A stretch of 64,000 nt of DNA from Tribonema minus (Eukaryota; Sar; Xanthophyceae; Tribonematales; Tribonemataceae), in NCBI GenBank assembly GCA_017506865.1, contig JAFCMP010000060.1, forward strand, positions 62,001 through 126,000, read 5' to 3'. A program made the position numbers and the translations under genes. Shown one piece after another: positions 9,061-57,736 of the stretch; the first letter of the stretch is position 1; the number at the start of each line of letters is the position of its first letter. The notes below the pieces were generated by a model, which worked only from the letters and a program-made list of their open reading frames with translations, had not been told where the DNA came from and did no database searches.

Positions 9061-10182
9061 GATGACCGTGCAATGGTGATCATTGGCACATGACTAATCA
9101 TGGTGGTGTGCCTGCTTGACTTATAATTAGTTCTGATATCTGCTGCAGCCAGTGCGCAGTGCTGCATATCGACGCCAACTTGATGTTGTGCTCATGAATG
9201 CTGTACATGCGCCGCAGGGACCTCCAAGTCTGCACTGCGGGGACCTCCAAGTCACTGACAGCACCTGCAGCATGGACCGTCGCGTGTATGTTCAGCTGAT
9301 GTATGGCGTTTTGCGGCCTGTGCCCAGCGACACGGTGAGTGGCGTCCTGCGTCGTGCTTGCTCACGCATGCGCGCCCGCGGGCTTGCACGCCTTCCATGT
9401 TCCACTTGTGATGACTTCCGAAGCGTGTAGCGGCACAAAGAAGCAGCCATGTGATTGTCAAAGTCTAAATGTTTCACACGGACTGGGAACTGTGATCGGA
9501 AGGGCGCATATATGTTGAACGTGGAAGGCCACTGGATCCACCGGTGGCAAGGGCTCATCGCTGATGCCACCACAGTGTCTGAGTACCTATCGAGTGACTC
9601 GCAACAGGTGCTGGGCATAATGAACAAGCTTCACGGGCATCGTCTCTATTGCAAGCCCATCACGTCTGACAGTCGCCGTCAGTGTTCACAAATGTGCATC
9701 TGCGTATTGCGGCAGCACGTGAGGGAACTCACTTCAGCAAAGGTCGAAGTGCACATTTCAATAACAGTTGTGTAAGCTGCTATTGGCAGCGCATAGCGCT
9801 TCAGCAGCAGCATGCCACGGCAGACGACGCAGCGGCCGGAAGCACCAATGCCTAACAGTCTCCTAATTTTTCCTGGTCACGTCACCGTCCACGCGCCTAC
9901 GAGTCTCGGGATCCGTGGGTGGCGATGCGGCGGGCGAGACCACCGCACCTCGTGTCGGCGGCCCACAATGAAGCATGACCGTCGCCGTTCGCAAAGGTGT
10001 CTGTTGCCAGACACAAGCGGATTTGCAGACGTCTCTGGAGTAGAACCTCAAGTATGACTTGAAGTGCCTGGTGTCATCCTGTCTCTGGCCAGCTCTGGCG
10101 CGAACTGATCTCGTTGCCATCCCAGCAGCAGCGCACTGCGGCAACCTTAGACCAGGACGCTGCCAAGGCTCCCACAGAAGAT
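9061..10182. other. Intergenic spacer upstream of LRR copy 1
   Basis: No gene is supported. The only sizeable frame is 9455-9775 (+), about 106 residues, which opens with TTG and has no recognisable domain. A short direct repeat (GGGACCTCCAAGT) occurs near 9218 and 9240. From about 10082 the sequence is homologous to 14221 onward, so the LRR duplication reaches into this spacer. Confidence 0.4.
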
Positions 10183-12726
10183 ATGCAAGCAATGAAAGCC
10201 GAGGTCACACAGCAAGTCACACAGCACAACCGAGGCGACCGGGTAGCCATTGACAACAACTTGCCGCACGAGCACCAGAATCTAGAGGAAAGCATCAGCG
10301 CCGGCGAGGGCACTCAGGGCGCATCGGGGACGCTGGAGCCCGTGGCTGGCCCGGGTGCAGGCGAAGGCAAGGCGAATGAGCTGCTGGCTGGCGGCGGGAG
10401 CGCTGTCGCAGGTTGCGCTTCCGCAGCTGCGGGTGGGAGCGAGGGCGGTGCTGCTGACTCAGCAATGCGGCTGGTGCCAGAGGTGCAGAAGCGCGCCAGG
10501 ACAGCAGAGCAGAGCTTGGACACACTCATCCAGGTGTTCACCGTGCTGGCGCAGGGTCGCACACTTTCTAAACGTGCCTGGGGGGCCTGTGCAAATCCCT
10601 GCATCTCAAGGTGCGTCCGTTTGCACGCCTCAAACTGCGGGGACCCTGGCCGCCGGCAGCAGCTGCTTGTGTGTTCTTCAGGAAACATATTGTGCGGCTG
10701 GAGCTCAGCGGGACCGTTGACATCGACCCCCTTCTAGCGCTGAGTCTCAGCCCTGCAGCACCACAGAGAGGCGCCACCGATGCCTTCGAAGACATGTACA
10801 CAGACGGTGGTGTCATCACCTTGTACTGTTACCGTGGGCCGCTAAACCGCATTCCACGCAACTGCAAGGAAGTGCGCCTGGAGGCCAGCGATCCCAGTCA
10901 TGACCTGCCGCTGCTGCGGTCAGTGCTCCGCCGCGCAGGTGCGGGCATCCAAGCGGACGCGCTCATGCTGGTCCAGTCGCTCTCAGTAGACGGTGACATG
11001 ACGGCGCTGCCGGACAGCATCGGCGCCTTGCCAGCACTCACCCACCTGAACGTGAACAGCCTCTCAGAGCTGACAAGTCTGCCGAGCACCATCGGCAGCC
11101 TGTCCGCACTCACTGTGCTCAACTTGAGCGAGTGCAGGCAGCTCAAGAGCCTGCCGGATTCGATCGGCGATCTGGCTGTGCTCACGGTTCTCAACCTCTG
11201 GAACTGTGCTGATCTCACCAGCCTGCCGGACCGCATCTGTGACCTGGCGGCGCTGACGAGGCTCGACTTGGGCGGCACGTACTTCAGGGCTTTACCGGAT
11301 CGCTTTGGTGATCTGGCAGCACTAACAGAGCTCGACATACGTGATTCATTCCTGAGGGCCCTGCCTGAGAGCATTGGCAGCCTGGCACGACTGAAGACGC
11401 TCGTCGCATTTGGAATATGGTGCGACCGACTGCCGGAGCGGTTTGGCGAGTTGGCAGCGCTCACGACGCTAGATTTGAGCCGCTCCAACCTCAGCAGCGT
11501 GCCAGACTGCATCGGTGGCTTGGTAGCACTGCAGACGCTTACGTTGCGCCAACTATCCTGTGCCAGCCTGCCAGACACCATCGGCGACCTGGCGGCGCTG
11601 ACAACGCTGGACCTCAGCGAGAGCGAGGCACTCACAAGTCTCCCGGTCACATTTGGTCAACTGCACGCCTTGGAGCAGCTCAACTTGAGCGGCTGCACGA
11701 CTCTGGCTCTGCTGCCAGACGACATCAGCGCTCTGGCGGCATTGTCAGTGCTCAACTTGAGCTCCTGCGCAGCTAGCGCGGCTGCCGGACGTCTGCGGCA
11801 AGCTGGCAGCAGCGCTCACGGAGCTGAACCTGCACGGGTGCGGGCGGCTCTCTCGCTTGCCGGACAGCCTCAACAGCCTCACAAAGCTACCGTCGCTCAT
11901 GCTGCGCGATTGCGGACGGCTCATCTGCCTGCCGGAACATTTGCAGGGCCTTGCAGCGGTGACTAGGGTGGACTTGCACGACTGCAGATCGCTGACGTGC
12001 CTGCCGGACAGCATCGGCGCGCTGGCGGCTCTGACGGCGCTCGACATGGAGGGGTGCGAGCAGCTGCAGCGGCTGCCCAATACCATCGGGCAGCTGGCGG
12101 CGCTGACGTCTCTCAATGTGAGCGGGTGCGCGCTGCTCACGCACCTGCCGGATGCAATCGGCACCCTGCAGGCGCTTACATGCCTCCAAGCGCGCAACTG
12201 CGGAGCACTGACGCAGCTGCCGGACAGCATTGCCGGCCTGACGGCGCTGACCAACCTCAACCTCAGCCACTGCGAGCAGCTGACCAGCCTGCCTGACGCC
12301 GTGGGGAGTCTGGCGTCGTTGACGGAGCTCGACGTCAGCGCTTGCCAACGCCTCACAAGCCTGCCGGACACGATCGGCACCATGTCAGCGCTGCTGCGGC
12401 TCCACATCAGCCGGTGCAAGGGGCTCATCAGCCTGCCGGACGCCATCGGCGGGCTCACGACACTGGAACAGCTCCATGCCAATGGCTGCAGCCAGCTCGC
12501 GCGCCTGCCGGACTCGTTCTGCGACCTGGGCGCGCTGATGTTCCTCGACCTGCACGGCTGCGAGCGGCTCACGACGCTGCCGGAAACGCACGGCAAGCTG
12601 GAGCTGCTCCTCAGGAGGTTTGCGGCGGCGCCGCGGCGCATGCCGCCGAGGCCTGGCTGGGGGCGCGGGAAGAGAGGGGAGGCGGTGTCCATTCACTCCA
12701 CATACAGGTGCGGCCAGGGACCGTGA
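10183..12726 (+). pseudogene. Leucine-rich-repeat protein, tandem copy 1, two frameshifts
   Basis: Homologous over its whole length to the intact LRR gene at 14327-16789. The ATG at 10183 matches that gene's start. Against copy 2 there is a net +2 nt near 10580-10605, after 'LAQGRTLSKRAW', and a 2-nt loss near 11775, after 'LNLSSC'. The protein is therefore split over three frames: N-terminal module (10183-10590), first LRR block (10611-11770) and second LRR block (11857-12726). The LRRs are of the 'LPDSIGDLAALTVLNLS' type, about 24 residues each. No splice sites bridge the shifts convincingly. It is probably a pseudogene, but two assembly errors would give the same picture. The sequence is otherwise well conserved, so inactivation would be recent. 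Confidence 0.7.
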
Positions 12727-13013
12727 TGCGCGCCAAGAGGTTGCGCAAGAGCCCTTATTAGTGATGGTTGTAGGCGACAGTGACGCATATGACAGGCTGC
12801 GTACAACAAGAGGTTGCGTGATGGCACTGCATATGCAATGGTGACTATTCGTACTACTTATGCATGCATCATGATGATTTGCCCGCTCTTGTCTTCCTGT
12901 CTGCTTGTCATTGAAGCGCAGTGTATTGCAGATGATTGCTGTGCATACGGCTGCACATAGAGTCATCACAGCAGACCATTGGGCCACTTCCATCAAAGTC
13001 CGCACACCAGTGA
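12283..13013 (+). repeat. Copy 1 of the patchwork-identical LRR 3' segment
   Basis: Two blocks, 12283-12497 and 12615-13013, read base for base the same as 16346-16560 and 16678-17076 (offset 4063). The 117 bases between them differ at many positions. The second block runs about 285 bp beyond the stop codon into non-coding DNA. Confidence 0.9.
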
Positions 13014-14326
13014 ATCGCATGCACATTGCGCACTCATGTGATGCATCAACCCCCGGCATGCCTGTGCTCAGCAGCGTGATTGTGTGAATGCTGTTGTGCC
13101 TTTGAATAGGCTTGTATGCTCTTCTTGCCAGCCTTGCGTGCACACCCTTGAAGTGGCGCATCTGTAGGGGCATTCTACGGTCTGTTGTTGACAAGCTTCA
13201 ACATTGCAAACCATTGCACCAGTTATGCTGTAACTGCTCAAAGTTACAGCTGCTATTATGATGCCACACTGGTGCATCGCCCTGCGGCACCGCTTCCGAT
13301 ATCGAGCACTGCGCGTTGTGCTGTGCTGCAATATGCATGCAGGTGTAAGCAGACTTCACATTGGCATGTAGCTGCGGCTTCTTGTTGCTGAGGTGTCCCG
13401 TGACTGGCAAACATGAGCAGCTGCTGTGAATTGAATATTGTATCTGTAGGCCTGATGACAGGCGTTTATGTTGTGGAATAATTGCTTGATCAACAATTGC
13501 AGTAATTCAGGTGAGAATTTGTGAGCTAACAGTACCATGCACAATATCTAGATGTGGTTGTGGTTCAAAATGATCACACATGTTTATTAATGAGCACATG
13601 CATGTTTCTGAGCCCATGCAAATGCTTTGAACCCAGTACAATGTCAGCGGTGTACACGTGTACTCCAGTCAGTGGTTGTGTTGCATTTCCGGCTTGTGTG
13701 TCAGCACAGCGAGGGTGTGCAGTCGCTTGGTACTCAAACGCCGACTTCAGCGCCTCTCCACTGATTGAATGTCATTGGTCATGTCAACATGAATGTCTGC
13801 ATGCATGAAGGTGCCGCAGTAAGTATCAATGCTCTCTGAGCCAATGCACAACTTACGCAAGCGTGCATACAATGTGCAAGTTCACGCTTCGACCATTGCG
13901 CACTGTTCCGCAAGGTACCTGGGAGTTTCTCAACTGCCAGTGATGTGGGACATATACATCGTTGCTATGGTCTAATACTACGCCACAGGTCGCTTATTGC
14001 ATCGCAGCCCCTCAAGAGTACAGCACACTTCTGCACGCTGCTGACAGCGCCACATTCTCGAGTGAAAGACACTTCAAGGTTCACCTTCACCAGTTCACGA
14101 GCTTGATGCTGCCAGCCAGGAGTGACATGAGGAGTTCTCACTTCGAACAACTTCAATATGACGACTTGAAGTATGGGCAGACGCGGAAAAAGTAGCCTTG
14201 GTGCAGTCGGATCCAACCTCCTCTGGCCAGCGCGGCTAGCGCGAACCGATTAAATCACTGCCATCCCAGCAGCAGCGCACTGCGGCAGCCTCAGACCAGG
14301 ACGCTGCCAAGGTTCTCACGGAAGAT
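13014..14326. other. Spacer between LRR copies 1 and 2
   Basis: No coding region is supported. Much of it (about 13020-13960) is the diverged counterpart of 17086-18000; for example, 'TGTGTCAGCACAG' occurs near 13697 and 17950. The last 110 bp match the upstream flank of copy 1 (from 10082), so the duplicated unit is about 4.1 kb including flanks. Confidence 0.6.
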
Positions 14327-16789
14327 ATGCAAGCAATGGAAGCCGAGGTCACACAGCAGAACCAAGGCGACGGAGTAGCCATTGACACCAGCTTGCTGCG
14401 CGAGCACCCTTATCTAGATAAAAGCATCGGCGCCGGCGAGGACCCTCAGGGTGCATCGGAGCACGTGGGTGGCCCGGCTGCATCTGAGGGCAAGGCCGAC
14501 GAGCTGCGGGATGGCGGCGGGAGCGCTGCAGCAGATTGCGTTTCCGCGGCTGTGGGTGGGAGCAAGAGCGGTGCTGTTGACTCAGCGATGCGGCTGGACT
14601 CCGAGGTGCATAAGCGCGTCATGGCAGCAGAGCAGAGCATGGACACACTCATCCAGGTGTTCACCGTGCTGGCGCAGGGTCGCAACCTTCCTAAGCGTGC
14701 CTGGGACCTGTGCACTGCACTGCATCACAAGGTGCGTCCCTCTGCGCACATAAAACTGCGTGGTCCGCGGCCGCCAGAAGCAGCTGCTCATGCGTTCTTC
14801 AGCAAGCATGTCGTCCGGCTGCGGCTCAGCGGGTCCTTCGACATCGACCCCCTTCTAGCGCTGAGTCTCAGCCCTGCAGCAAGACAGCGAGGTGCCACCG
14901 ACGCGTTTGAGGACATGTACGCAGACGTGGGTGTCATCACCTTGCGGCACTACCGCGGGCCGCTCAAGCGCATACCGCGCAACTGCAAGGAAGTGCGCCT
15001 GGCGTCGAGCAATCCCACTTATCACCTGCGGCTGCTGCGGTCAGTGGACCGACACACAGATGCAGGCCTTCGAGCGAATGCGCTGATGCTGGTCCAGTCG
15101 CTCTCAGCACATAAATACATGGCGGTGCTGCCGGACAGCGTCGGCGCGTTTGTAGCACTCACTGACCTCGACTTGAGCAGGGCTTCAGAGCTAACAAGTC
15201 TGCCAAGCACCATCGGCAACCTGTCTGCGCTCACGGTGCTCAATTTGTGCGCCTGCCGTGCGCTCAAGAGCCTGCCGGATTCAATCGGCGATCTGGCAGC
15301 GCTCACGGTGCTCGACATCAGCGGTTGCTTCAGGCTCACCAGCTTGCCGGACAGCATGTGCGACCTCGCGGCGCTAACGAGCCTCAACCTGGGCTACACG
15401 GCCTTTGAGGCGCTGCCGGACCGCTTCGGTCATCTGGCAGCGCTGACAGAGCTCGACATAAGCAATTCATCCCTGAGGTCCCTGCCGGAGAGCATTGGCA
15501 GCCTGGCGCGACTGAAGACGCTCGTCACATCTGGCATCAAGTGCGACCTACTGCTGGAACATCACGGTCTTGGCCTGTTGGCAGCACTCACAACGCTAGA
15601 CCTGAGCCTGTCCAGCCTCATCTTCAGCCTGTCAGATACCATCGGCAACCTGGCGGCGCTGACCACGCTTGACCTCAGCGAGTGCGAGGTACTCACAAGT
15701 CTCCCGCTCACATTCGGTCAATTGCACGCCTTGGAGCAGCTCAACTTGAGCGACTGCACATCGCTGACTCTGCTGCCAGACGGCATCAGCGCTCTCGCAG
15801 CGCTGACTGTGCTCAACTTGAGCTCCTGCACGCAGCTTACGGAGCTGCCGGACTTGTGCGGCAAGCTGGCAGCAGCGCTCACGGAGCTGAACCTGCGCGG
15901 GTGCGGGCAGCTCTCTCACTTGCCGGACAGCCTCAACAGCCTCACAAAGCTACAGACGCTCACGCTGCGCGACTGCGGACAGCTCATCTGCCTGCCGGAA
16001 CATTTACAGGGCCTTGCAGCGCTGACCAGCGTAGACTTGCACGACTGCCGATCGCTGACGTGCCTGCCGGACAGCATCGGTGCGCTGGCGGCTTTGACGG
16101 CGCTCGACATGGAGGGGTGCGACCAACTGCAGCGGCTGCCCGATACCATTGGCCAGCTGACGGCACTGACATCTCTCAATCTGGGCAGCTGCGCGCGACT
16201 GGCGCACCTGCCGGATGCGTTCGACACCTTGCAGGCGCTCGAGTGCCTTCAAGCGCGCAACTGCGGAGCACTGACGCGTCTGCCGGACAGCATCGCCGGC
16301 CTCACAGCGCTGACCTCCCTCGACATCAGCCACTGCGAGCAGCTAACCAGCCTGCCTGACGCCGTGGGGAGTCTGGCGTCGTTGACGGAGCTCGACGTCA
16401 GCGCTTGCCAACGCCTCACAAGCCTGCCGGACACGATCGGCACCATGTCAGCGCTGCTGCGGCTCCACATCAGCCGGTGCAAGGGGCTCATCAGCCTGCC
16501 GGACGCCATCGGCGGGCTCACGACACTGGAACAGCTCCATGCCAATGGCTGCAGCCAGCTGGCCAGCCTGCCCGACGCGATCTGCGAGCTGGGCGCGCTG
16601 ACGTTCCTTGACGTGAACGGTTGCGAGCGGCTCATGGCGCTGCCGGAAACGCACGGCAAGCTGGAGCTGCTGCTCGCGAGGTTTGCGGCGGCGCCGCGGC
16701 GCATGCCGCCGAGGCCTGGCTGGGGGCGCGGGAAGAGAGGGGAGGCGGTGTCCATTCACTCCACATACAGGTGCGGCCAGGGACCGTGA
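14327..16789 (+). CDS. Leucine-rich-repeat protein, tandem copy 2, intact
   Basis: Intronless frame of 820 residues from an ATG that also exists in copy 1. Residues 1-90 are low complexity (Ala/Gly/Ser/Glu). Residues 90-265 form a module shared with the paralogues at 10.2 and 51.3 kb ('TLIQVFTVLAQGR', 'LRGPRPPEAAAHAFF', 'FDIDPLLALSLSPAA'), which I cannot name. From about residue 265 to 790 come some 20 LRRs of 23-24 residues ('LPDSIGDLAALTVLDIS'), resembling the non-kinase, non-NBS repeats of plant-type LRR proteins. The tail is basic ('RRMPPRPGWGRGKRGE'). There is no signal peptide, membrane segment, NB-ARC or kinase domain, so a cytosolic protein-binding scaffold is the plainest reading. 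Function is unknown. Confidence 0.87.
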   Translation: MQAMEAEVTQQNQGDGVAIDTSLLREHPYLDKSIGAGEDPQGASEHVGGPAASEGKADELRDGGGSAAADCVSAAVGGSKSGAVDSAMRLDSEVHKRVMAAEQSMDTLIQVFTVLAQGRNLPKRAWDLCTALHHKVRPSAHIKLRGPRPPEAAAHAFFSKHVVRLRLSGSFDIDPLLALSLSPAARQRGATDAFEDMYADVGVITLRHYRGPLKRIPRNCKEVRLASSNPTYHLRLLRSVDRHTDAGLRANALMLVQSLSAHKYMAVLPDSVGAFVALTDLDLSRASELTSLPSTIGNLSALTVLNLCACRALKSLPDSIGDLAALTVLDISGCFRLTSLPDSMCDLAALTSLNLGYTAFEALPDRFGHLAALTELDISNSSLRSLPESIGSLARLKTLVTSGIKCDLLLEHHGLGLLAALTTLDLSLSSLIFSLSDTIGNLAALTTLDLSECEVLTSLPLTFGQLHALEQLNLSDCTSLTLLPDGISALAALTVLNLSSCTQLTELPDLCGKLAAALTELNLRGCGQLSHLPDSLNSLTKLQTLTLRDCGQLICLPEHLQGLAALTSVDLHDCRSLTCLPDSIGALAALTALDMEGCDQLQRLPDTIGQLTALTSLNLGSCARLAHLPDAFDTLQALECLQARNCGALTRLPDSIAGLTALTSLDISHCEQLTSLPDAVGSLASLTELDVSACQRLTSLPDTIGTMSALLRLHISRCKGLISLPDAIGGLTTLEQLHANGCSQLASLPDAICELGALTFLDVNGCERLMALPETHGKLELLLARFAAAPRRMPPRPGWGRGKRGEAVSIHSTYRCGQGP

Positions 16790-17076
16790 TGCGCGCCAAG
16801 AGGTTGCGCAAGAGCCCTTATTAGTGATGGTTGTAGGCGACAGTGACGCATATGACAGGCTGCGTACAACAAGAGGTTGCGTGATGGCACTGCATATGCA
16901 ATGGTGACTATTCGTACTACTTATGCATGCATCATGATGATTTGCCCGCTCTTGTCTTCCTGTCTGCTTGTCATTGAAGCGCAGTGTATTGCAGATGATT
17001 GCTGTGCATACGGCTGCACATAGAGTCATCACAGCAGACCATTGGGCCACTTCCATCAAAGTCCGCACACCAGTGA
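16346..17076 (+). repeat. Copy 2 of the patchwork-identical LRR 3' segment
   Basis: Counterpart of 12283-13013. Identity stops at the same base downstream in both copies, after 'CACACCAGTGA', where the flanks diverge. Confidence 0.9.
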
Positions 17077-18000: not shown

Positions 18001-18025
18001 TGAGGGGCGGAAACCATTGTACGTA

Positions 18026-21000
18026 TGGACTTGTATTTATAAAGGCCCAAGGGAGGCCGGGTTGCCTATGCAATCGAAAAGCTTGCGTCAACGCAGCAGC
18101 CTAGTCTGCGCTGTGCCCTAGGAGCTTGGATACCGGCGCCGCAACACAGCCCAGCATTCGCGCTCCACGTGTGTACGCCATGACGCGCTCCGCCAACTCC
18201 CGCGCCAGCGATATGCTCAGCTCAATGAGGATCTGACGCTTAGCTAACCCGGCCTTGCGTAACACATCTGCCTTCCCCCCCCCTGAGCACAGTGCTGAGT
18301 GCATTGCCAACTCCTTAACAAAAAGGCTTGTCTGCTTGCCCAGCCGTCCGTACGACTCCTGCACGAATGGCACAAAAGCCCAAGATGACGTCAAGGTGCC
18401 GGTGTGGTGCTTGACCTTCGCGTCCTCCCCCACCCCAGCAGCATAGCCGTCCGTGTTCGAGGCATTTGTTTTGCCTGTCAGGTACGAGCTCGCTGTGGGC
18501 GCGCGCACACTTGTGTCTAGCACTATTCCCTTGTTACGGTATGCACTGCTAAAGTGCAGACACCCTGCGTCAATGACTGTGTCCGCCCGATACCCCGGTA
18601 CCTTGAAGACGCTAGCGTCCTCATTGCGGACAATAGAGACATGGTGCTGTCTCAAGATGCGCTGCAGGCACCGCTTTTGGGCAGTGTGTGTCGCGTTGTG
18701 CCCCCGTATGTGCTGGCTGGGGCAGCTGATCGCATGCGTGGAGGTGGGGCTCACATCACTGCACCGCCATGGGCACACCTCGCCCTGTATGCCCCACCCG
18801 TCTATGAAGATCGCAATCAAAATCATCGTGGCTGCTGCCATACTGGACATGGGCGCCGCACCCGGGCGGTCATTGGCAGTGGGTGGCACGCTCATCCACG
18901 CCATTGCCCCGGACGCACGCTGGCTGCGCAGCTGCGCCAGGACCCGTGCGCTAGCCTGTTGGCGGCGGCGGCTGGTGTCGCGCGAGTCACCAATAGGTGC
19001 AGCCTGCGTCGGCTTGCCCACGGCACCAGCCGAGGCAGCCTCTAGGTCCTCCACCAGGCAATCCTCGTATTGACGTCGAAGAACATTTGAAAGGCCGGCT
19101 TGTAGTCCGTGCGTGAAGTGACCGCGCCGGCGGCGGGGCACTACCTTCCTGCAGATCTCATCAGCATAGGCCTCCCAGTCGTCGTCGTCGTCCTCCTGCC
19201 CGCCGCTGCAGCTGCTTTCTTCCGCGCTAGTTTGTGTTTTAGCGGGCGTGGAAGGGGCAGCCGCGGCAGCGGCTTGAGGGCCAGGTACGGTCGCCGCCGC
19301 AGCGGCCGCCTCGGCGCCAGGCACAATGCCGTGGGTGTGTGGGGCTGGCTCAGTGGTCACTGTCTCCGTGACGGCTGTTGCGGCGTAGATCGCTTGCACC
19401 GCAGTGGGGAGCGTCGACGCTGCGGCCGTCGTATCTGCCCACCGTAGCAACGATGCTGGGAGCTGCTCGGCCACAGCTGTGCGTGATTTTTCGCCGCCAT
19501 CAGCTGTCAGCGCTCGCGTAGAGCGTCGCACGGCCTCGATGATTGGCGGCAGTCCCTGGTCCTCGCGTATTGCGCATGAGTGCTGCGCGAACCAGGTGAC
19601 TGCGCCGTGTTCGTCAGTGCCGAGCCTCAGGGCCCCTGCTGCCACAGTGGCATGAATTATTGCCGGCCTCAGTGTTGTGCATGCCTGGGCCGTGTATGCG
19701 GCTGGTGCCAGTAGCCCCAAAAGCGGCATGCCCAGACCGCCTCGTCGCTCCGGCAACCGTGACGCCCGCAGTGGCACTGCGATGTCCGTGAGTTCTGGCG
19801 GGCCCAAGCGCGGCAATACCAGCACGCTGCCACTGCTGGCTTCCTCATTGTCACCAGCAGTGCAGGCGGCCAGCAGGTGTGACTTCATGGCTGCCGCGGT
19901 AGAGCAGCCGTGCAGATGCAGCATGCGTTCGAGCGTCCATGCACAGAACCCGTCAAACGCGTGCAACCATGTCTCACTCAAAGCCGTGTCAACGACCCGA
20001 GCTAAGAAGCCCATGCGCTTCGTCAGTGACCTGCGTAGAATGAACTGTGCTGCCTGTAGGTGATGCCGCGCCATTCCAGCTAGCTGCCACGACAATCGCC
20101 ATGTCCCTGCGTCGACAAGATGCTTGCTCATGGCAGCGTGCACATAGGCTGGGTGCCCTACCGGTACCCCGACCGACGTAAAGCCCTGACTGGATTCTGG
20201 CATGGTGGTGTCCACAAACGGTATGTCAAGGGCGCGCAGGCGTGCTCTGGCCGCTTCATCAAACACTGTGCCGCGCATGGCGATGGCCAGCGACTTGTCT
20301 GGTCGAACGCGTAGGCCCCCTGCCGCCAGCCGGCGGATTACCTCTGCCACCCCAGCGGCCGCTGCATCGTCGAAGTAGGCAGCTTGCAGCACGTTGAGGT
20401 CATCCAGGAAAGCGCAGTGCGGGGCTGGCGGTTCCGCTGTGCTGTGGCCGTAGGCCGGCATACTGCCGGGCGTCGCATTCACTCCATCAGGGTAGAAGAG
20501 TAGGAAGGCCGCTGCCACTGCAAAGTACAGCGGCCCTAGAGGGTCCCCTTGCTGGCACCCTAGGTGGGAGCAGATAATGCGAGCTTCACCGTTCACCTCC
20601 ACCCGCATCTCTGGGGCAGTGTCACCACAGTATACGGACTCAAAGTGCGGGAGCAGCTCCGGACAGAAGAGCATAAGCCCCCGCACAATGGCGGCGCGAT
20701 CCACACTGTTAAATGCGTTCTCACAGTCCAGTTGGATAGTGGTGCCATACAGCTCGTGCCACACGCGCGCGCGCGCTGCCACATGCTCGACGCCAGACCG
20801 GTATCCTACGCCAAACTGCGACATGGAGGCCAGCAGCCCCGATATCTTGCCCTTGACACTCCGTGCCGCTGTGGACCCGAGGAGTCTGCGCCAGACACTG
20901 GAGCAGGCGATCGGACGCCGCTTCTGTCCTATGCCTGAGAGGGCCGCGGCGCGGAGAAGCCGTTGCGATTGCTCCGGCAGCAGTTCGGGCTCAACAAGCA

Positions 21001-26360: not shown

Positions 26361-26712
26361 TGTGCCATTCGTGCAGGAGTCGTACGGATGGTTGGGCAAG
26401 CAGACAAGCCTTTTTGTTTAGGAGTTGGCAATGCACTCAGCACTGTGCTCAGGGGGGGGGAAGGCAGATGTGTTACGCAAGGCCGGGTTAGCTAAGCGTC
26501 AGATCCACATTGAGCTGAGCATATCGCCGGCGCGGGAGTTGGCGGAGCGCGTCATGGCATACACACGTGGAGCGCGAATGCTGGGCTGTGTTGCGGCGCC
26601 GGTATCCAAACTCCTAGGGCACAGCGCAGACTAGGCTGCTGCGTTGACGCAAGCTTTTCGATTGCATAGGCAACCCGGCCTCCCTTGGGCCTTTATAAAT
26701 ACAAGTCCATAC
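26361..26712 (+). mobile_element. Truncated 3' end of retrotransposon family 1
   Basis: Nearly identical to the 3' end of the element at 18026-21247, in the opposite orientation. It retains the last about 69 codons (26425-26634, ending '...KLLGHSAD'), with one change turning a Lys codon into TAG just upstream. It ends '...CAAGTCCATAC' followed by GTAC. The flanks are near-identical runs: 'CACTTTTTATTAA' on the left (26347-26359) and 'TACTTTTTATTAA' on the right, as if it had inserted into the tail of another element. Confidence 0.88.
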
Positions 26713-27287
26713 GTACTTTTTATTAATTCTCGCTCAGGGCGCGAAAAAGCCCAGATGATTGGCATCTAGCTGTAAGGAATCTACATGTCGTATGACAGTC
26801 TGAAAGTGTCGCAACGACAACCACTCAAACGCCGCCGCCGCCAAATGGCATCTCGGGGTCCTCCCCTACGTCCTCCTCCATGTGCCCGCCCCCCCTGGAT
26901 TCTGCCATGTGTGTCATGACACGGCCAGAGTACGCCATGTGGAGCGCTGCCATGTGTACTTTTATTATATTCCACAATGTGTACTTTTATTAATTTCGCT
27001 TCGCAAGGGGCGCGAAAAGCCCTCTCTTTGGATGTGCACTCAATGCAACATTCCTTCTCCGAACAGAGACTCAAACGCAGACAGGCTTCCCCCTCTTCAC
27101 ACTACCAACAATGTGTACTTTTTATTAATTCTCGCTCAGGGCGCGGAAAAGCCCAGATAATTGGCATCTAGCTGTTAGGAATCTACATGCCGTATGACAG
27201 TCTGAAAGTGTCCCAACGACAACCACTCAAACGCCACCGCCGCCAAATGGCAATGTGTACTTTTATTAATTTCGCTTCAATGTGTAC
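26713..27287 (-). mobile_element. Stack of truncated retroelement 3' ends joined at GTAC
   Basis: Five minus-oriented fragments lie head to tail. 26717-26950 is the 3' UTR plus C-terminal codons of family 2. 26960-26975 is the last bases of a family with tail '...GGAATATAATAAAA'. 26985-27109 is a variant tail. 27119-27251 is family 2 again. 27261-27278 is a mere 18-nt tail. On the element strand each ends in AATAAAA/AATAAAAA directly followed by GTAC. AATGTGTAC occurs at 26976-26984, 27110-27118, 27252-27260 and 27279-27287, and CATGTGTAC at 26951-26959, so every junction repeats the same target. Confidence 0.82.
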
Positions 27288-27449: not shown

Positions 27450-27453
27450 GTAC

Positions 27454-28106
27454 TTTTTATTAATTCTCGCTCAGGGCGCGAAAAAGCCCAGATGATTGGC
27501 ATCTAGCTGTAAGGAATCTACATGTCGTATGACAGTCTGAAAGTGTCGCAACGACAACCACTCAAACGCCGCCGCCGCCAAATGGCATCTCGGGGTCCTC
27601 CCCTACGTCCTCCTCCATGTGCCCCCCCCCCCTGGATTCTGCCATGTGTGTCATGACACGGCCAGAGTACGCCATGTGGAGCGCTGCCGACAGTGCCGAG
27701 CGTAAGCGCGCCAGGGCGATGCCCTTGAGAGCTTTAGGGCGCGCTCCTCCGGGCACTGACATCCTGCTGGCATACTCCGTCGCCACAGCCTCCAGCAGCT
27801 TCCGCCCCTGCTCCCCGATGCTGCCAAATGACCCTATTGCCAAAGTGGCAAGTTTGTAGCAATTCTCATCATAATGACCAGAATAGTGGGTAGTCTTGGC
27901 GGCCTCTTGGTCGCGGCAGCATCGCTCGGGGTCTGCTGCAGTCTTCGCCGCCCGCGACGCCACCTGTGCCTCGAAGCAGGTAACGTCCACCATGAGCGGT
28001 TGGTGGCGTGTCGGGTCGTCGTAGCCGGTCACCGGGAAGGCGTCGGCAGGCAGCACGATGTCCATCCTGCCTCTGTGATGAAACTTACCCCCAGCATTTA
28101 CAACAT
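27454..28106 (-). mobile_element. Truncated retrotransposon family 2, C-terminal nuclease-like part
   Basis: Minus-strand copy with the C-terminal about 180 residues of a pol protein (27562-28106) and a 3' UTR ending AATTAATAAAAA|GTAC (27450-27453). The protein part has 'RMDIVLPADAF' and 'LMVDVTCFEAQVASRAA', then 'THYSGHYDENCYKLATLA', like the nuclease end of LINE-type polyproteins. The RT part is missing, so the copy is strongly 5'-truncated. It abuts a plus-oriented copy at 28107. Confidence 0.82.
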
Positions 28107-28259
28107 GTAGGGGAGGGCCCCGAGATGCCATTTGGCGGCGGCGGCGTTTGAGTGGTTGTCGTTGCGACACTTTCAGACTGTCATACGACATGTAGATTCC
28201 TTACAGCTAGATGCCAATCATCTGGGCTTTTTCGCGCCCTGAGCGAGAATTAATAAAAA
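28107..28259 (+). mobile_element. Truncated family 2 copy, inverted against its neighbour
   Basis: The last codons ('EMPFGGGGV', stop) plus 3' UTR of family 2 in plus orientation, ending AATAAAAA then GTAC (28260-28263). With the copy at 27454-28106 it forms an inverted repeat of about 150 bp arms whose two 3' ends point outward, each against a GTAC. Confidence 0.85.
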
Positions 28260-28368
28260 GTACTGGGGGTGACTTTTATGACATGATCCAGAAGTGTTGC
28301 AATAGCAGCAGGTGAAGTGTTCAGCGTAAGCAGCAGCAGCGGAAATCCAGCCACGCCTGCAGGGACAA

Positions 28369-28519
28369 CGAACCCCATATTTGGGCCAGCCTGGCCCAAA
28401 TATCTCGTGGGCCAGGTAGGCCACGTTACTGAGAACTGCGCTGCTGCCGCACCCCGAAGAGACACTCATTGTGCCCCAGCAAAGCGCCCCTGGTGGCGTA
28501 CGACAGCTACTACACCAGC
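28369..28519 (+). repeat. Left terminal inverted repeat with internal hairpin
   Basis: Matches the reverse complement of 30303-30450 with few differences. Near its outer end is a palindrome at 28376-28402: arms ATATTTGGGCCA and TGGCCCAAATAT around GCC. Confidence 0.82.
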
Positions 28520-30302: not shown

Positions 30303-30450
30303 CAGTAGCTGTCGTACGCCACCAGGGGCGCTTTGCTGGGGCACAATGAGTGTCTCTTCGGGGTGCGGCAGCAGCGCAGTTCTCAGCAGATGACGTGGCC
30401 TACCTGGCCCACGAGATATTTGGGCCAGGCTGGCCCAAATATGGGGTTCG
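30303..30450 (-). repeat. Right terminal inverted repeat with internal hairpin
   Basis: Reverse-complement partner of 28369-28519, including the same 12-bp-arm palindrome (about 30416-30443). It begins right at the truncation point of the transposase frame. Confidence 0.82.
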
Positions 30451-51262: not shown

Positions 51263-53191
51263 ATGGCTGCAATGCAGCTGCAGCTGGCCGCTCTGGACGT
51301 AGCCATCGTTGCGGCACAGGATCCCCACTCAGTTGGCTTGCGTGCCACTGGCATCATCTCACAGCCAGGAGCTGCAATGAGTAATGGCGATAGTGCCGGA
51401 GAAATCGCTGCGCAACCAGCTGGTGACAGCAATGGCGGGAGCAGGGCTGCCGGAGGGTGTGGGCACGTGCCAGGCGAGGGCTTCACAAGTGGATGCGCAG
51501 GCGCAGCAGCGCAGGACGGCGGGGCGGCGCCATTGCAGAAACGCCTCAGAGGCATTGAAATGAACATGACATCTTTGGACAGGCTCATTTGGGTGCTCAC
51601 AGTGGTGGCGCAGAACCGCATGCTGCCCAAGTCGGCCTGGAGCGCCTGCAGGACCATGCACCAAAGGGTGAGGCCAATCGTGCGCCTAATCCTCGGCGGT
51701 CCGTGGCCGCCATCAGCAGCAGCCCGGGTCTTCGACACCAAGACCGTCGTCCGCCTCGAACTGCAGGGCTCATTTGAAGTTGATCCGCTGCTCGTCCTAG
51801 CTTTGAGCCCTGCAGCAGCAGCGCCCAGCGCTTCCGCATCAGACGGGTTCGACAGCTTGTTCCGACACGTCAAGGTCCTGACCCTGAATAACTTCGGGGG
51901 AGCGTTCACGCGCATTCCGCAGTCACTGCGCGAGCTTCACGTGTGGTACAGCGACCCTGCTCAAATGCTGCCCCTGCTGCGCGGGCTGGTCCGCGCCACA
52001 CCCGAGGGGGCCCGGGCCGGCGCGCTCGCGCTGGTGACGGTGCTCGCCCCCCATCGCGCCATGGCGACGCTGCCTGACAGCATCGGAGGCTGGGCGGCGC
52101 TGAAAACGCTGGACCTCAGCTTTTGCGGCGAGCTCGCGAGCCTGCCAGACAGCATCTGCGACCTGGCCGCACTCACGAGGTTCGACCTTACCGGCTGTGT
52201 CACCCTGGCAGCGCTCCCCGACGGCATCGGGCGCCTGCGCGAGCTGACCATGCTGTACCTGACTGGCTGCTGGTCGCTCACCAGCTTGCCCGGCAGCATC
52301 GGCCATCTGACGTCGCTGATGGACTTCGAGCTGGACGCATGCACTGCGCTCACCGGACTACCCGACAGTGTCGTCAATCTGGCCGCGCTGACGCGACTGA
52401 ACCTAAACTTCAGCACCGCGCTCGCCACCCTGCCGCACCGCATCGGGGACCTGGCAGCGCTCAAAGCGCTCTTCCTTTGCGAGTGCGACAACCTGGAAAG
52501 GTTGCCGGACAGCACTGGCGACCTGGCGCTGCTGCAGGTGCTCAAGCTGGCGGATGCGGGCATCTCGTCGCTGCCGCACACCATCGGCAACCTATCGTCA
52601 CTGACCCAGCTGGACCTCCGCTACATGCGCTTCACCGGTCTGCCGGACGGCATCTGCGGTCTGACGGCGCTGGTCAGCCTCGACCTGACCGAAAGCGCGC
52701 TCACGGCGCTGCCGGAGGGCATCGGCGCGCTGGCGGCGCTGACGCATCTCATCCTCAAGTGCTGCCCGCAGCTTGCCGCCCTGCCGGACTCCATCGGCGA
52801 CCTCGCGGCACTGGTCTACCTCGACGCGCACGGCTGCGGAGCGCTGACGCGGTTGCCAGACGGCATGGGCCGCGCGCGGACCTTGAGAGCGCTTCTGCTG
52901 GGGTCATGCACGCGTCTCGCAGAACTGCCGGGCTCCCTCTGCGACCTGGTGGCGCTAGAGCGGCTCGACCTCAGCGCCTGCGAGCTCCTGACGCATCTTC
53001 CGGAGCGCATGGGCGAGCTGGTGCGGCTCACGTCGCTCGACCTGACCGGCTGCAGCGGACTGCTGAGCCTGCCGGGCGGGCTGCGGACGCTGCGCCGGCT
53101 CCCGCGCATCGACGTCGTGGGCTGCGCGGATGCCGTTCGGCTGCAGGCGAAGACGCCCTTGCAGGACGACGATTTTGATGCCTCGAAGTAA
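51263..53191 (+). CDS. Leucine-rich-repeat protein, dispersed third family member
   Basis: Intronless, 642 residues from the first in-frame ATG (51263); the frame is open a little upstream without ATG. Architecture is the same as the tandem copies at 10-17 kb: variable Ala/Gly N-terminus to about residue 85, then the shared unnamed module ('LIWVLTVVAQNRMLP', 'LGGPWPPSAAARVF', 'FEVDPLLVLALSPAA', 'GGAFTRIPQSLRELHV'), then about 15 LRRs ('LPDSIGDLAALVYLDAHGC'). It has fewer repeats than copy 2 and lacks its basic tail. The module order and spacing are kept although the sequence has clearly diverged, which argues that the N-terminal module is functional. No signal peptide, membrane segment, NB-ARC or kinase. 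Confidence 0.87.
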   Translation: MAAMQLQLAALDVAIVAAQDPHSVGLRATGIISQPGAAMSNGDSAGEIAAQPAGDSNGGSRAAGGCGHVPGEGFTSGCAGAAAQDGGAAPLQKRLRGIEMNMTSLDRLIWVLTVVAQNRMLPKSAWSACRTMHQRVRPIVRLILGGPWPPSAAARVFDTKTVVRLELQGSFEVDPLLVLALSPAAAAPSASASDGFDSLFRHVKVLTLNNFGGAFTRIPQSLRELHVWYSDPAQMLPLLRGLVRATPEGARAGALALVTVLAPHRAMATLPDSIGGWAALKTLDLSFCGELASLPDSICDLAALTRFDLTGCVTLAALPDGIGRLRELTMLYLTGCWSLTSLPGSIGHLTSLMDFELDACTALTGLPDSVVNLAALTRLNLNFSTALATLPHRIGDLAALKALFLCECDNLERLPDSTGDLALLQVLKLADAGISSLPHTIGNLSSLTQLDLRYMRFTGLPDGICGLTALVSLDLTESALTALPEGIGALAALTHLILKCCPQLAALPDSIGDLAALVYLDAHGCGALTRLPDGMGRARTLRALLLGSCTRLAELPGSLCDLVALERLDLSACELLTHLPERMGELVRLTSLDLTGCSGLLSLPGGLRTLRRLPRIDVVGCADAVRLQAKTPLQDDDFDASK

Positions 53192-54138
53192 GTGCACTGC
53201 TCGCGCGTCGCTGTTGGTTCGGCTGCTAGGTGTGTCATGGGTCAGCCTGAGAGCCAAGTAGTGGCCAGCGTGCATGCGCTGGCTGACGTCACCACATGCT
53301 GCATTTGAGCATCGCTCGAATTGTGTGCCTCAATCGCCTTGCCCGCTCCCTACCGCATTGCACGCACTAGAGATGCACGGCGTAGCTTGAAGCCAGCATG
53401 CTTTGTGCGAGCGGTGCCACATTAATTCCATGGACCACAGGCCTGCAAGCAGCAGCAAGCCGCGGCATCTGCCACTGACTGAACTACAGCGCGTCATGCA
53501 TCAGCTATGTACGTCGCGGTGGCTGTTGCGCTGATGCTCCTTGCGGAGGGGCCGGTGCTATATGCATGAGGATTGATTCCTTGTGTCAGCAACGAGGGCT
53601 GATGTGAGCAATGAGGTCCTATGCAGCAATTGCTGACTTGGTGACGGGCAGTTACCACATTGCGGCACACCTAGCCATTCATAGCTGCTGTGTTTGCCCC
53701 AGACTGAGCGCCAGAGCTGGCGGCATGCCCTGTGTTCATGCATAGGTTTGTGGCAATTGATGGACCGACTGCTATCATTATGCTGGCGGTGACGTGTTGT
53801 GCGTATGATTCAACAGAGCTGCACTCAACCCCGCAGCAACACATTTCAGTCGCCAGGCTGGATGTGCGTGGCAATCAATGCAGTGTGAACATTCTACCGA
53901 ACACGTGAGACCTTTCCAATACTGAACACCCATGCCTCGAACGCTAAAAGCTTGCACACAAAGTCTTTTGCCTGGTGGATACGGTGGTACTGTTTGACTC
54001 GTGGCCAGTTGCTGCAACAGCGGCGACCACGGTTATTGGTGGAAGGCACTTGCGGCTAACCATCCCTTGTCACCTAGAGCTCTACGATCTTTTGGTTCGT
54101 TTTCATTCACGTGCTTGTCGCTCTGACCGCACTCGCAG
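53192..54138. other. Region between the LRR gene and the first recognised recombinase exon
   Basis: Should contain 5' exons of the RAD51/DMC1-like gene (helix-hairpin-helix N-terminus) if that gene is complete, but I could not recognise any. No repeats or RNA genes seen. Confidence 0.4.
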
Positions 54139-55652
54139 GAAACCTGTGATCAGGATAACAACACGCTGCAAGCCCGTTGACAGGTTTCTTGGTGGTGGGG
54201 TAGCGACAGGGCTCATCACCGCGCTCCGTAGCGCATGTGGGACAGGCAAGCCACATCAGCTCATGTAAGTGCCGGGCAGGTGCCGATGGCCACAACATGG
54301 TGCGATGTTCACCCATGTAGCTACATGCCCAGGAGCAGAGGGTGTCCGTGGTCACCACTTCTTGTCTGTCAAACATGGCATACAGTTCATGTGCTTTGTG
54401 TCGGATGCATGTACCATATGTGCGACGCAACCATGGTGTGCATGGTATATGATACATGTGCAGACATGCGGCCCTGCCCGAGGTGATCATTATGGCAGAA
54501 GATGGCATCGCTGTGGCACTTAGTCACTCGGCATCCATACTTCAAAGTATGGGTTGCTGTACCGCTGAGGGGCAGCGCCTCTGAAAATGGCAATGCAGCA
54601 GCACAACGTGTCACTCAGGTAGCATGGGCACCCACCGCATTTCGACATGCGTCTCTTTCTTCCGGCCGCCATCGCGCAGGCACACGCTGGCAGTGACGGC
54701 GCAGCTGGACGTCGCCAGCGGCGGCGCCGGGCGCGACGCACGCGTCATCTTCATTGACACCGAGAAAACCTTCACCCCCGGAATGATCGTGGCCATCGCC
54801 GAGCGCCTTCGCCTCAATGGGGACGAGGTAAGGCTTGACAATGTGAGAAGGGAAGTGAGCTTGGTGGAGGTACTACAGACTGGGCTCCAACGGTTGGGTC
54901 AGGCCCATACACTGAGCCCAAGGCTTGCGTCTGTGCCTAGCACACGTGAGTATACACGTGTGCAACTTCACGATGCGCACAGTGTTGTTGCTGAGGCTGC
55001 TCCAAGTCCTTTCATTTGAGCAGGAATGCGTGTGTTGGTACTCACACTTGCACAAGACTAATTTGAATTCTGCACTGATCACACATTCTCCACGTATGCA
55101 GCCTCAGGCTGTTGTGAACATCCAGGTGTGTGGCGAAGCAATGCTGCCTCTCCTGGCTGAACCATGTGCATCAACGTGACCACTTCTATGTATGCATGAC
55201 GCGCGTGCAGAAGGGCAAACGGGCCGGCAAACAGTTTGAGCACAGTAGTGGCTTTTTCATAAATGTATTTGTCTTTTCGTATGTACACACCAACCAAGTG
55301 CTGCTCTTGCATGCAGACGCTGTCATTGACTGAGCAACGCCACAAAACAGGTTGCTGCGTGCACGTTGCGCATTTCAAGCTGGCACAATGCGGCAGTGTC
55401 GTGCAACTAGATAACACCAGCACCTTCAAGTTCTTGTGACAGTACACGTGCAGCGTCAAATGTTGCACGCACACACCATCTGTCTTGCACAGGGGCTGGA
55501 CCGAAGGTGACGATGAGCGCTGACTGCGCTGCTGCGTGCGATTTGACGTGCGTGCCAGGTGTTGGGGAACGTACATCATTGCGTATGCGACACTTACGAG
55601 CAGCAGGTACAAGTCTGAATCATCCCCATATGTTCTTGATGCGGCTCAGGGC

Positions 55653-55729: not shown

Positions 55730-57137
55730 CCCCTTGAACCCATTCTCTCGTCTGCATCTATTGACTTCAGGATTAGGGACAGGATCAGGGCAGGCAACTT
55801 CTCACAGGGGTCATGTGAGGCCCAGCCGGCGTGAAGGGGGTGGCATTGTGGTGACGTGGCACCCCACCAGCAGGAGAGGGGGGCTGCCCCGCTAAGTGCT
55901 CACACGCCTTCCGGCTCAGTGGTCAAAGCCAAATTCACAACAGCAGTTTTGCCAATAGCCTCAAGTTGCTTGCCGGCGCCCAACCAGCTCAGAGGTAATG
56001 CCAGAGTCACCACAGCAGTCTTGCCAATCGCATCACGTTGCTTGCCAGCGCCACGGAGGCCATGGCTCTAATCTGGCAGTCAGACCGTGATCCGCTAATG
56101 GATGGCATGACTCAAGCTAGCAAAAACCCAGTGAGCAACGACTTGGTGACCAGGTGTCCCTTGTGCTAAAAAAATTTCAGACACGATGAAAGATATACAC
56201 CATGAGAATCATACAGAATGACATGCGTAGACTACATGTACTTGTTGTCTCTAGCCACTGGCATCCTATCAGGAGTCTCAAGGTGCAGATGGGAGGGTGC
56301 TCTCAGTCTTGCTTCTCAGTTAGCCAGAAGTGAATCTGAACAGCCAAGAGCTCCTAGGGGTAGGGTTTAAAAGTATGTACCCAGAACACCCCAAGTTGTG
56401 ACATCATAAAGCACCCTGGTACTCAGAATTCCCTGGTGGTATACACACTTGCTAATTGAGGTGCATACCCAAAACATAAAACGTCTGACAGTCCACGCAT
56501 ACTGTGCACCTGTGATTCGCCCTCAGATGGACTATGCCACTGCTCCGGGCTTGCAGCTGGCCGACAGCAGTGGGTTCGTGAGGTACGCAGGCATACGCAC
56601 CCAGCCGCTCATGTGTCCGAACGCCCTTGAACCCGTGAAACACACAGCTTGCCGATGGCCAGCGCCACAATGCTTACGCGTGTAATGGCTATCGTTGTCT
56701 GCACCAAACAGGTTGGTCATCACGTCCACATCATCTACATGCACTGATGCCGCCAGAACACGCATGAGTGCATGCTGCCTCACTTGAAGCACGTGCAGTG
56801 GTACAGCTGACGCTGTGTGCCACATCAGCTGTTACAGTGGAAGGGCGCATACTCGCTGCATGCTCGCTGCGCCCTGCTCTACTCTATCCGCTCACAGTGA
56901 GCACAGTGACGCCAATTCCATCTCACTGACTCTTGAGTCACGTGAGGGTTAGGGCTAGGGTTATCGTATTTTGCGCTGGCACCCCCGCATTCACACGCCG
57001 CACAACGGCTCGCTTGGTGGCCGTGACCGCTCAGGCTCATCATCGTCGACTCCGTCACGCTCTTCCGCGCCGGCCTTTCCAAGGAGTCCGGGCGCGGCGA
57101 GATTGCGGAACGCCAGCAGCAGTGGAACAAGTACATG

Positions 57138-57589
57138 GAGGCCGCCAAGACTACCCACTATTCTGGTCATTATGATCAGAATTGCTACAAACTTGCCACT
57201 TTGGCAATAGGGTCATTTGGCAGCATCGGGGAGCAGGGGCGGAAGCTGCTGGAGGCTGTGGCGACGGAGTATGCCAGCAGGATGTCAATGCCCGGAGGAG
57301 CGCGCCCTAAAGCTCTCAAGGGCATCGCCCTGGCGCGCTTACGCTCGGCACTGTCGGCAGCGCTCCACATGGCGTACTCTGGCCGTATCATGACACACAT
57401 GGCAGAACCCAGGGGGGGGGGCACATGGTGGAGGACGTAGGGGAGGACCCCGAGATGCCATTTGGCGGCGGTGGCGTTTGAGTGGTTGTCGTTGCGACAC
57501 TTTCAGACTGTCATACGACATGTAGATTCCTTACAGCTAGGTGCCAATCATCTGGGCTTTTTCGCGCCCTGAGCGAGAATTAATAAAAA
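57138..57589 (+). mobile_element. Truncated family 2 retroelement inside a recombinase exon
   Basis: Carries the C-terminal about 100 codons of the family 2 pol ('AAKTTHYSGHYDQNCYK'...) and its 3' UTR, ending AATTAATAAAAA. It is preceded by GTACATG (57131-57137) and followed by GTACATG (57590-57596). It is very close to the copies at 27454-28106 and 28107-28259. Confidence 0.92.
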
Positions 57590-57596
57590 GTACATG

Positions 57597-57672
57597 CTAC
57601 ATCCAAGAGTGAGAACAAGGCGACACACCTACAACATGGCATTTCCACAGCCACAAGTGGAATATAATAAAA
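57597..57672 (+). mobile_element. Second stacked retroelement tail (family 3)
   Basis: A 76-bp fragment ending GTGGAATATAATAAAA, the same tail seen in reverse at 26960-26975. It is bounded by GTACATG at 57590-57596 and again at 57673-57679, so it inserted into the target duplication left by the first element, or the reverse order. Confidence 0.85.
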
Positions 57673-57736
57673 GTACATGACGAGCGTCAAGAAACTGGCG
57701 CGGGGGTTCAACCTAGCAGTGGTGATCGCCGGCTAA

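Follow-up and report, generated by a model that had tools for sequence, protein, structure and literature searches.

The window analysed was a stretch of 64,000 nucleotides of the genome of Tribonema minus, a yellow-green alga (Xanthophyceae, Stramenopiles) (bases 62001-126000 of contig C60), while genome searches covered 554 contigs (158 Mb). Coordinates are those of the window. It contained a copy of a DMC1-like gene, one exon of which was interrupted by two retroelement tails that were separated and flanked by the word GTACATG:

54131..54262, + strand: DMC1-like exon of the Walker A region, decayed (SACGTGKPH against GEFRTGKTQ in the C468 DMC1; tblastn with the L095 translation, E = 1.7e-7)
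54660..54836, + strand: DMC1-like exon (HTLAVTAQLDV...FIDTEKTF...), 61% amino acid identity to the C468 DMC1 exon (E = 8e-20)
57035..57130, + strand: interrupted DMC1-like exon, left part (LIIVDSVTLFRAG...RQQQWN), identified by similarity to DMC1; start approximate
57131..57137, + strand: first GTACATG, the left target-site duplicate
57138..57589, + strand: 5'-truncated family-2 copy (RLE-type LINE), comprising the end of the reading frame and the 3' tail, ending AATTAATAAAAA; 98.7% identical to L003
57590..57596, + strand: second GTACATG, between the tails; its CATG also matches family 3
57597..57672, + strand: strongly 5'-truncated family-3 copy (whole element, about 1.07 kb) with the terminal sequence AATATAATAAAA, matching other copies in the genome exactly
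57673..57679, + strand: third GTACATG, the target-site duplicate on the right, running on into the exon
57680..57736, + strand: interrupted DMC1-like exon, right part (TSVKKLARGFNLAVVIAG), with a premature TAA at 57734-57736

The three GTACATG copies were situated exactly where the sequence-only reading had placed them, and its account of the intervening DNA, as a truncated family-2 element followed by a family-3 tail, was borne out by the recurrence of both in the window or genome. The family-2 tail was 452 nt in length and the family-3 tail 76 nt, or 80 nt when the CATG common to target and element was counted. Family 3 reads TTTGCATGCTACATCC elsewhere and, because CATG belongs to both, the junction at the second copy was ambiguous by 4 nt. 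A reversed-word control was void for GTACATG, which reads the same backwards. The word was present 26 times in the window, against 5.5 in shuffles, and 49,590 times in the genome; therefore, the argument rests on copies falling exactly at element junctions, and not on the word itself.

With one GTACATG retained, the flanks formed a single open frame, and the resulting ERQQQWNKYMTSVKKLARGFNLAVVI aligned to DMC1, RadA and RAD51 without a gap at the junction. The best PDB match of the joined exon was a DMC1 chain, with RadA close behind; amino acid identity was 66% to the DMC1 on C468, 62% to a DMC1-like copy on C1 (L093) and 45% to the RAD51 on C122. The description of the exon as RAD51/DMC1-like therefore held as to family, but needed refinement, in that the exon is closest to DMC1 and belongs to a decayed copy, with a TAA after AVVIAG. 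Judging from the exons fetched, the C122 sequence (L091) represents RAD51 and that of C468 (L092, L095) an intact DMC1, while L093 (G000:C1:1448050-1449320) is a second DMC1-like copy, likewise diverged. The repeats had also been said to give an exact empty site, and the intact paralogue is indeed uninterrupted here: the C468 DMC1 has AACAAGCACATGACG at the position of AACAAGTACATGACG in the joined window, and the window copy carries AAGTACATG where the intact gene has AAGCACATG. The C468 DMC1 is a natural empty relative, and the comparison suggests that a C-to-T change made the GTAC.

Upstream, a Pfam match to Rad51 was found at C60:116678-116848 (window 54678-54848), and the Walker A motif was GTGKP in place of RTGKT; downstream, the last DMC1 exon had no recognisable match between 57680 and 64000. 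The intron between the two upstream exons was also similar (54398-54481, E = 3e-7); therefore, the copy is a DNA-level duplicate and not a retrocopy. It was very likely decaying before the insertions occurred, and so these would not have broken a working gene. Since the elements were 98.7-100% like their relatives, against 66% for the exon, the insertions were probably late. For the gene, this means a pseudogene struck after decay, rather than a gene disrupted by transposition.

Family 2 was present at four further places in the window (96-98% identity) and its copies were spread over many contigs; 39 further full-length matches at 98-99% were found among the 40 that were scored out of 1726 candidates. 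Two copies in the window stood head to head:

27450..28106, - strand: longer family-2 copy, with the MD...DV nuclease-motif region
28107..28263, + strand: short tail of family 2 that faces the preceding copy head to head; GTACTGGGGG follows it

The flanks of this pair (27450-28263) showed a short inverted similarity (ACCCCCAG / CTGGGGGT). Elsewhere in the window, inverted arms at 28369-28511 and 30304-30450 (83 and 58 nt, 100% complementary) lay about 2 kb apart around open frames, and may represent a DNA transposon; leucine-rich-repeat-like coding repeats with 72-nt spacing occupied 10063-16800 and 52062-52800, and included duplicates in tandem at a distance of about 4.1 kb.

On C430, a longer copy of family 2 was covered by two contiguous pieces, L094 and L009. 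The open frame of L094 (1165 codons) included a reverse transcriptase domain (PF00078, E = 1.1e-10, 42 bits against a cut-off of 29.6) and was in phase with frame 0 of L009 when the pieces were read separately. L009 contained the motifs C-x2-C-x8-H-x3-C and RMD...DVT; by eye, in alignment A1, the former was present in all six close relatives having a C-terminus, while of the 11 rows covering the region all had D-[VI]-[ST] and 10 had R-M-D, P0001 carrying GMD instead. At the C-terminus, family-2 proteins had a Cys/His motif with a PD-(D/E)xK-like motif after it, a combination that we take to be of RLE type. The meaning given to the Cys/His and RLE-like nuclease motifs also derives in part from the available text of PMC4640811. 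A Pfam search of a 600-aa C-terminal piece of L009 found no family, and the N-terminus, which is C/H-rich by eye, had no Pfam zinc-finger match. No AP endonuclease was found in the 1165 residues scanned (L094:1-3495:-), where RVT_1 was the only match at E up to 1, although a very diverged domain could escape such a scan. With a profile of 14 proteins, the leading PDB matches were R2 chains (8gh6, E = 5.9e-6). The predicted model of a relative, P0009 (mean pLDDT 64.3), had an R2-like fold that included the nuclease end: Foldseek gave R2 proteins as ranks 1-7, with TM of only 0.30-0.41, while in VIA-align LINE-1 tied with R2 in Z and the nuclease end was covered by R2 rows only. These comparisons of sequence and predicted structure support family 2 as an RLE-type LINE, nearest to R2, and bear on its class and not its clade. 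Five Tribonema minus proteins matched the family-2 protein at 97-99% identity. Two annotated proteins, P0001 and P0006, appear to fuse family 2 with unrelated domains (sulfotransferase and Lon protease, from names or Pfam), perhaps through gene-model errors.

When 40 of 547 family-3 matches were scored, 30 other places proved 100% identical over 83 nt. The element is about 1.07 kb long and includes a repeated unit; 20 of 44 listed rows (some loci being listed twice) began in one 5' region. Fourteen of 17 long copies (L071 and 13 other loci) had an open frame of 328 codons with an internal repeat, against a longest open stretch of 206 codons in 300 shuffles, and the idea that family 3 is non-coding was rejected on account of this frame. 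The frame had no Pfam match; its relatives were one Tribonema protein and two metagenome proteins (49-55% identity) with no assigned function, and no reverse transcriptase was seen in family 3. All that the two families have in common is the AT-rich end TAATAAAA(A)GTAC. A 3' stem-loop common to three tails was discarded, being no better than shuffles in two of them. An Rfam scan of six loci with family-2 or family-3 ends, looking for a 5' ribozyme or a tRNA/5S head, returned four matches, none near the gathering score. Of the two stacked tails, one comes from an RLE-type LINE and the other from a shorter element of another kind, in which there is no reverse transcriptase.

Target preference was evaluated from 90 loci in three sets of 30: the top-ranking matches to family 2, the first of the 1759 hits to the pattern (which lie on C1 and C2 only), and the top-ranking matches to family 3. 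All 90 were found through queries or a pattern containing GTAC. Tails were left out where the 5' end was within 30 nt of the locus start, where the match ended more than 6 nt short, or where they were repeats, leaving 69 family-2 tails with a visible 5' end. GTAC occupied the 3' junction in 63 of these, a figure that is biased because queries and pattern ended in GTAC. The exact family-2 end GCGAGAATTAATAAAA occurred 1951 times in the genome, 1759 of these being followed by AGTAC, and ends with four A before GTAC also occurred (L056). In 34 of the 69 tails a 3'-flank word of at least 7 nt recurred at the 5' junction, 33 of them led by GTAC; exchanging the 3' flanks produced about 6. In the pattern-chosen set, 29 focal tails were reduced to 26 by the exclusion of three whose 5' end fell outside the locus (L038, too short to align, being uncounted); duplications of at least 7 nt were seen in 11 of the 26, against a mean of 2.5 and a maximum of 7 in 1000 shuffles. 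Fifteen of the 69 had no 5' match of at least 4 nt, and five of those also had no GTAC at the 3' junction. Family-3 duplications were like those of family 2, among them GTACATGAAG (L064) and GTACAACAAAG (L045). Variable 5' truncation, a fixed 3' end and target-site duplications were found together, which is the combination by which target-primed retrotransposition is recognised.

At 20 sites with a duplicated word of at least 7 nt and no strict tail before it, A led at positions -1 (13), -2 (12), -4 (14) and -5 (11), a preference slightly inflated, and stacking slightly undercounted, since three of the 20 (L007, L085 and L087) by eye follow variant tails. GTACATG was the word used at eight such sites. 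From both the A preference and this usage, AAGTACATG in the DMC1 copy is a typical target. A literature search with most subscription papers outside its reach returned no description of a GTAC-targeted non-LTR element or of Tribonema retrotransposons, and no match for RLE elements with green algae. Among RLE-type LINEs, a GTAC target appears to be new.

Stacking was frequent. The stacked 5' junction (TAAAA+GTAC) was present in 24 of the 69 family-2 tails, that is, in 6/17 from L001-L030, 9/36 from L031-L060, 7/12 at family-3 loci and 2/4 in the window, and in 7 of the 26 focal tails of the pattern-chosen set. Across the window the same junction occurred in 9 of 404 GTAC orientations, tails included. 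Genome-wide there were 877 + 2123 instances of TAATAAAA(A)GTAC, against 15 and 2 for the controls, or about 0.3% of GTAC orientations when scaled from the window GTAC count. Stacks ran head to tail, with a neighbour in opposite orientation in only one of the 69. The window included a second stack:

26713..27287, - strand: tails of 17, 132, 124 and 15 nt between four exact GTACACATTG and one GTACACAT, followed by a family-2 tail of 234 nt

Two of its five tails consist of just 15 and 17 nt of the element 3' end, and four exact copies of the 10-mer GTACACATTG were observed where 0.07 were expected. Its last 3' flank, GTACGTAT, departs from GTACACAT. A dispersed repeat (18019-18374 and 26361-26716, 98% identical, inverted) adjoins a family-2 tail at GTAC in its second copy. 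To judge from their sequences, stacks with rarer duplicated words reflect stepwise insertion.

The triple GTACATG is best explained by two retroelement insertions in succession at one target within the decayed DMC1 copy (probability about 0.8), as the sequence-only reading had proposed; GTAC-led duplications, the frequency of stacking elsewhere and the second stack with its rarer 10-mer all favour it. This draws on features seen directly, namely the anatomy of the sequence, the empty site, the duplications, the stacks and the protein class. A decayed, intron-bearing DMC1 duplicate would have carried AAGTACATG, and an RLE-type LINE favouring such sites would have cut it there; the 3' end of an RNA would then have been reverse-transcribed from the nick and, when synthesis broke off early, a 5'-truncated tail would have been left between two copies of GTACATG. 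One of these would subsequently have been reused by the same kind of machinery, whichever tail arrived first, and the family-2 enzyme most likely also moves family 3. The outcome would be GTACATG, family-2 tail, GTACATG, family-3 tail, GTACATG.

The same arrangement would arise from one insertion if a read-through transcript of an existing stack (family 2, GTACATG, family 3) had been inserted whole, with the middle GTACATG coming from the donor. As GTACATG is a common target, the middle copy could indeed have such an origin, and the 20-nt junction GTACATGCTACATCCAAGAG recurs behind a family-2 tail with unrelated flanks on C547 (L062, G000:C547:566310-566407). By exact matching, these are the only two places in the genome. 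Because no more than about 45 nt of family 2 are present at C547, that locus is a possible daughter of the window stack and is precluded as the donor. The CATG common to target and family 3 makes it likelier that the same breakpoint arose twice, and rarer duplicated words in other stacks point to stepwise insertion, such that a single composite insertion appears unlikely. A variant base was considered as a link between C547 and the window, but the C547 base was unique among 85 tails (overlapping loci counted twice) and therefore uninformative. Composite movement of a stack as one unit may sometimes occur.

A template jump between RNAs during one reverse-transcription event would also place both tails side by side in the same orientation, as observed. 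Such a jump fuses two RNAs end to end and does not account for a target word separating the tails, whereas the words found there match the local target, as with the four GTACACATTG of the second stack; it is very improbable. Even less credit was given to the block being a spliced, introner-like intron. GT-AG borders do exist at 57131 and 57673, where the first duplicate provides GT, and the last tail with the first base of the third duplicate provides AAAAG. Yet the removal of 57131-57673 yields AAC AAT ACA TGA, a stop; the frame is restored by removing 542 nt and not 543, the GT-AG pair being one base off; AAAAG is not preceded by a pyrimidine tract; and the copy has a premature TAA in any case.

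Beyond two successive insertions at this site, a general model can be offered tentatively, and on balance doubtfully: that an RLE-type LINE has narrowed to a GTAC word, and its insertions rebuild a landing site locked in orientation, such that stacks grow and may move as composites, a possibility hinted at by the recurrence of the family-2/family-3 junction on C547. The target word, rebuilt behind an A-rich tail, would form a favoured junction, and tails would therefore grow into stacks. R2 and other LINEs of the RLE type serve as models of target-primed reverse transcription and of site-directed DNA writing, and most known examples use repeated genes or microsatellites. If true, a LINE that restores its dispersed target word would provide thousands of natural insertions revealing target rules, tail recognition and 5' joining, with stacks as ordered records of successive insertions.

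Among known systems, the CRE and RTE-X LINEs of Ectocarpus offer a parallel from another stramenopile alga, one rich in LINEs that have short non-autonomous partners; the available text of PMC12477816 reports no GTAC target or tail stacks for these, and family 3 differs in having an open frame. SINE/LINE pairs with a common 3' tail provide a precedent in concept (PMC3747384, from the part available), in that family 3 may borrow LINE machinery through its 3' end; unlike such pairs, family 3 has a frame of 328 codons, and its overlap with family 2 is confined to TAATAAAA(A)GTAC. In green algae, according to the accessible portion of PMC8226300, nested insertion of Zepp and Zepp-like L1 LINEs builds tandem arrays, mostly of 5'-truncated 3' ends. 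Family 2 resembles Zepp in that LINE tails stack upon themselves through nested insertion, but Zepp belongs to the L1 clade and forms centromere clusters, whereas family 2 is R2-like, occurs on many contigs and reuses a GTAC target. With RLE-encoding LINEs it shares a central reverse transcriptase, an RLE-like domain and, at the C-terminus, a Cys/His motif. Most of these (R2, R4, NeSL/Utopia, CRE, HERO) are target-specific, although HERO also includes many non-specific families; in the sections of PMC4640811 available, their targets are multicopy genes, U2-like sites and microsatellites, while that of family 2 appears to be a dispersed AAGTACATG-like word.
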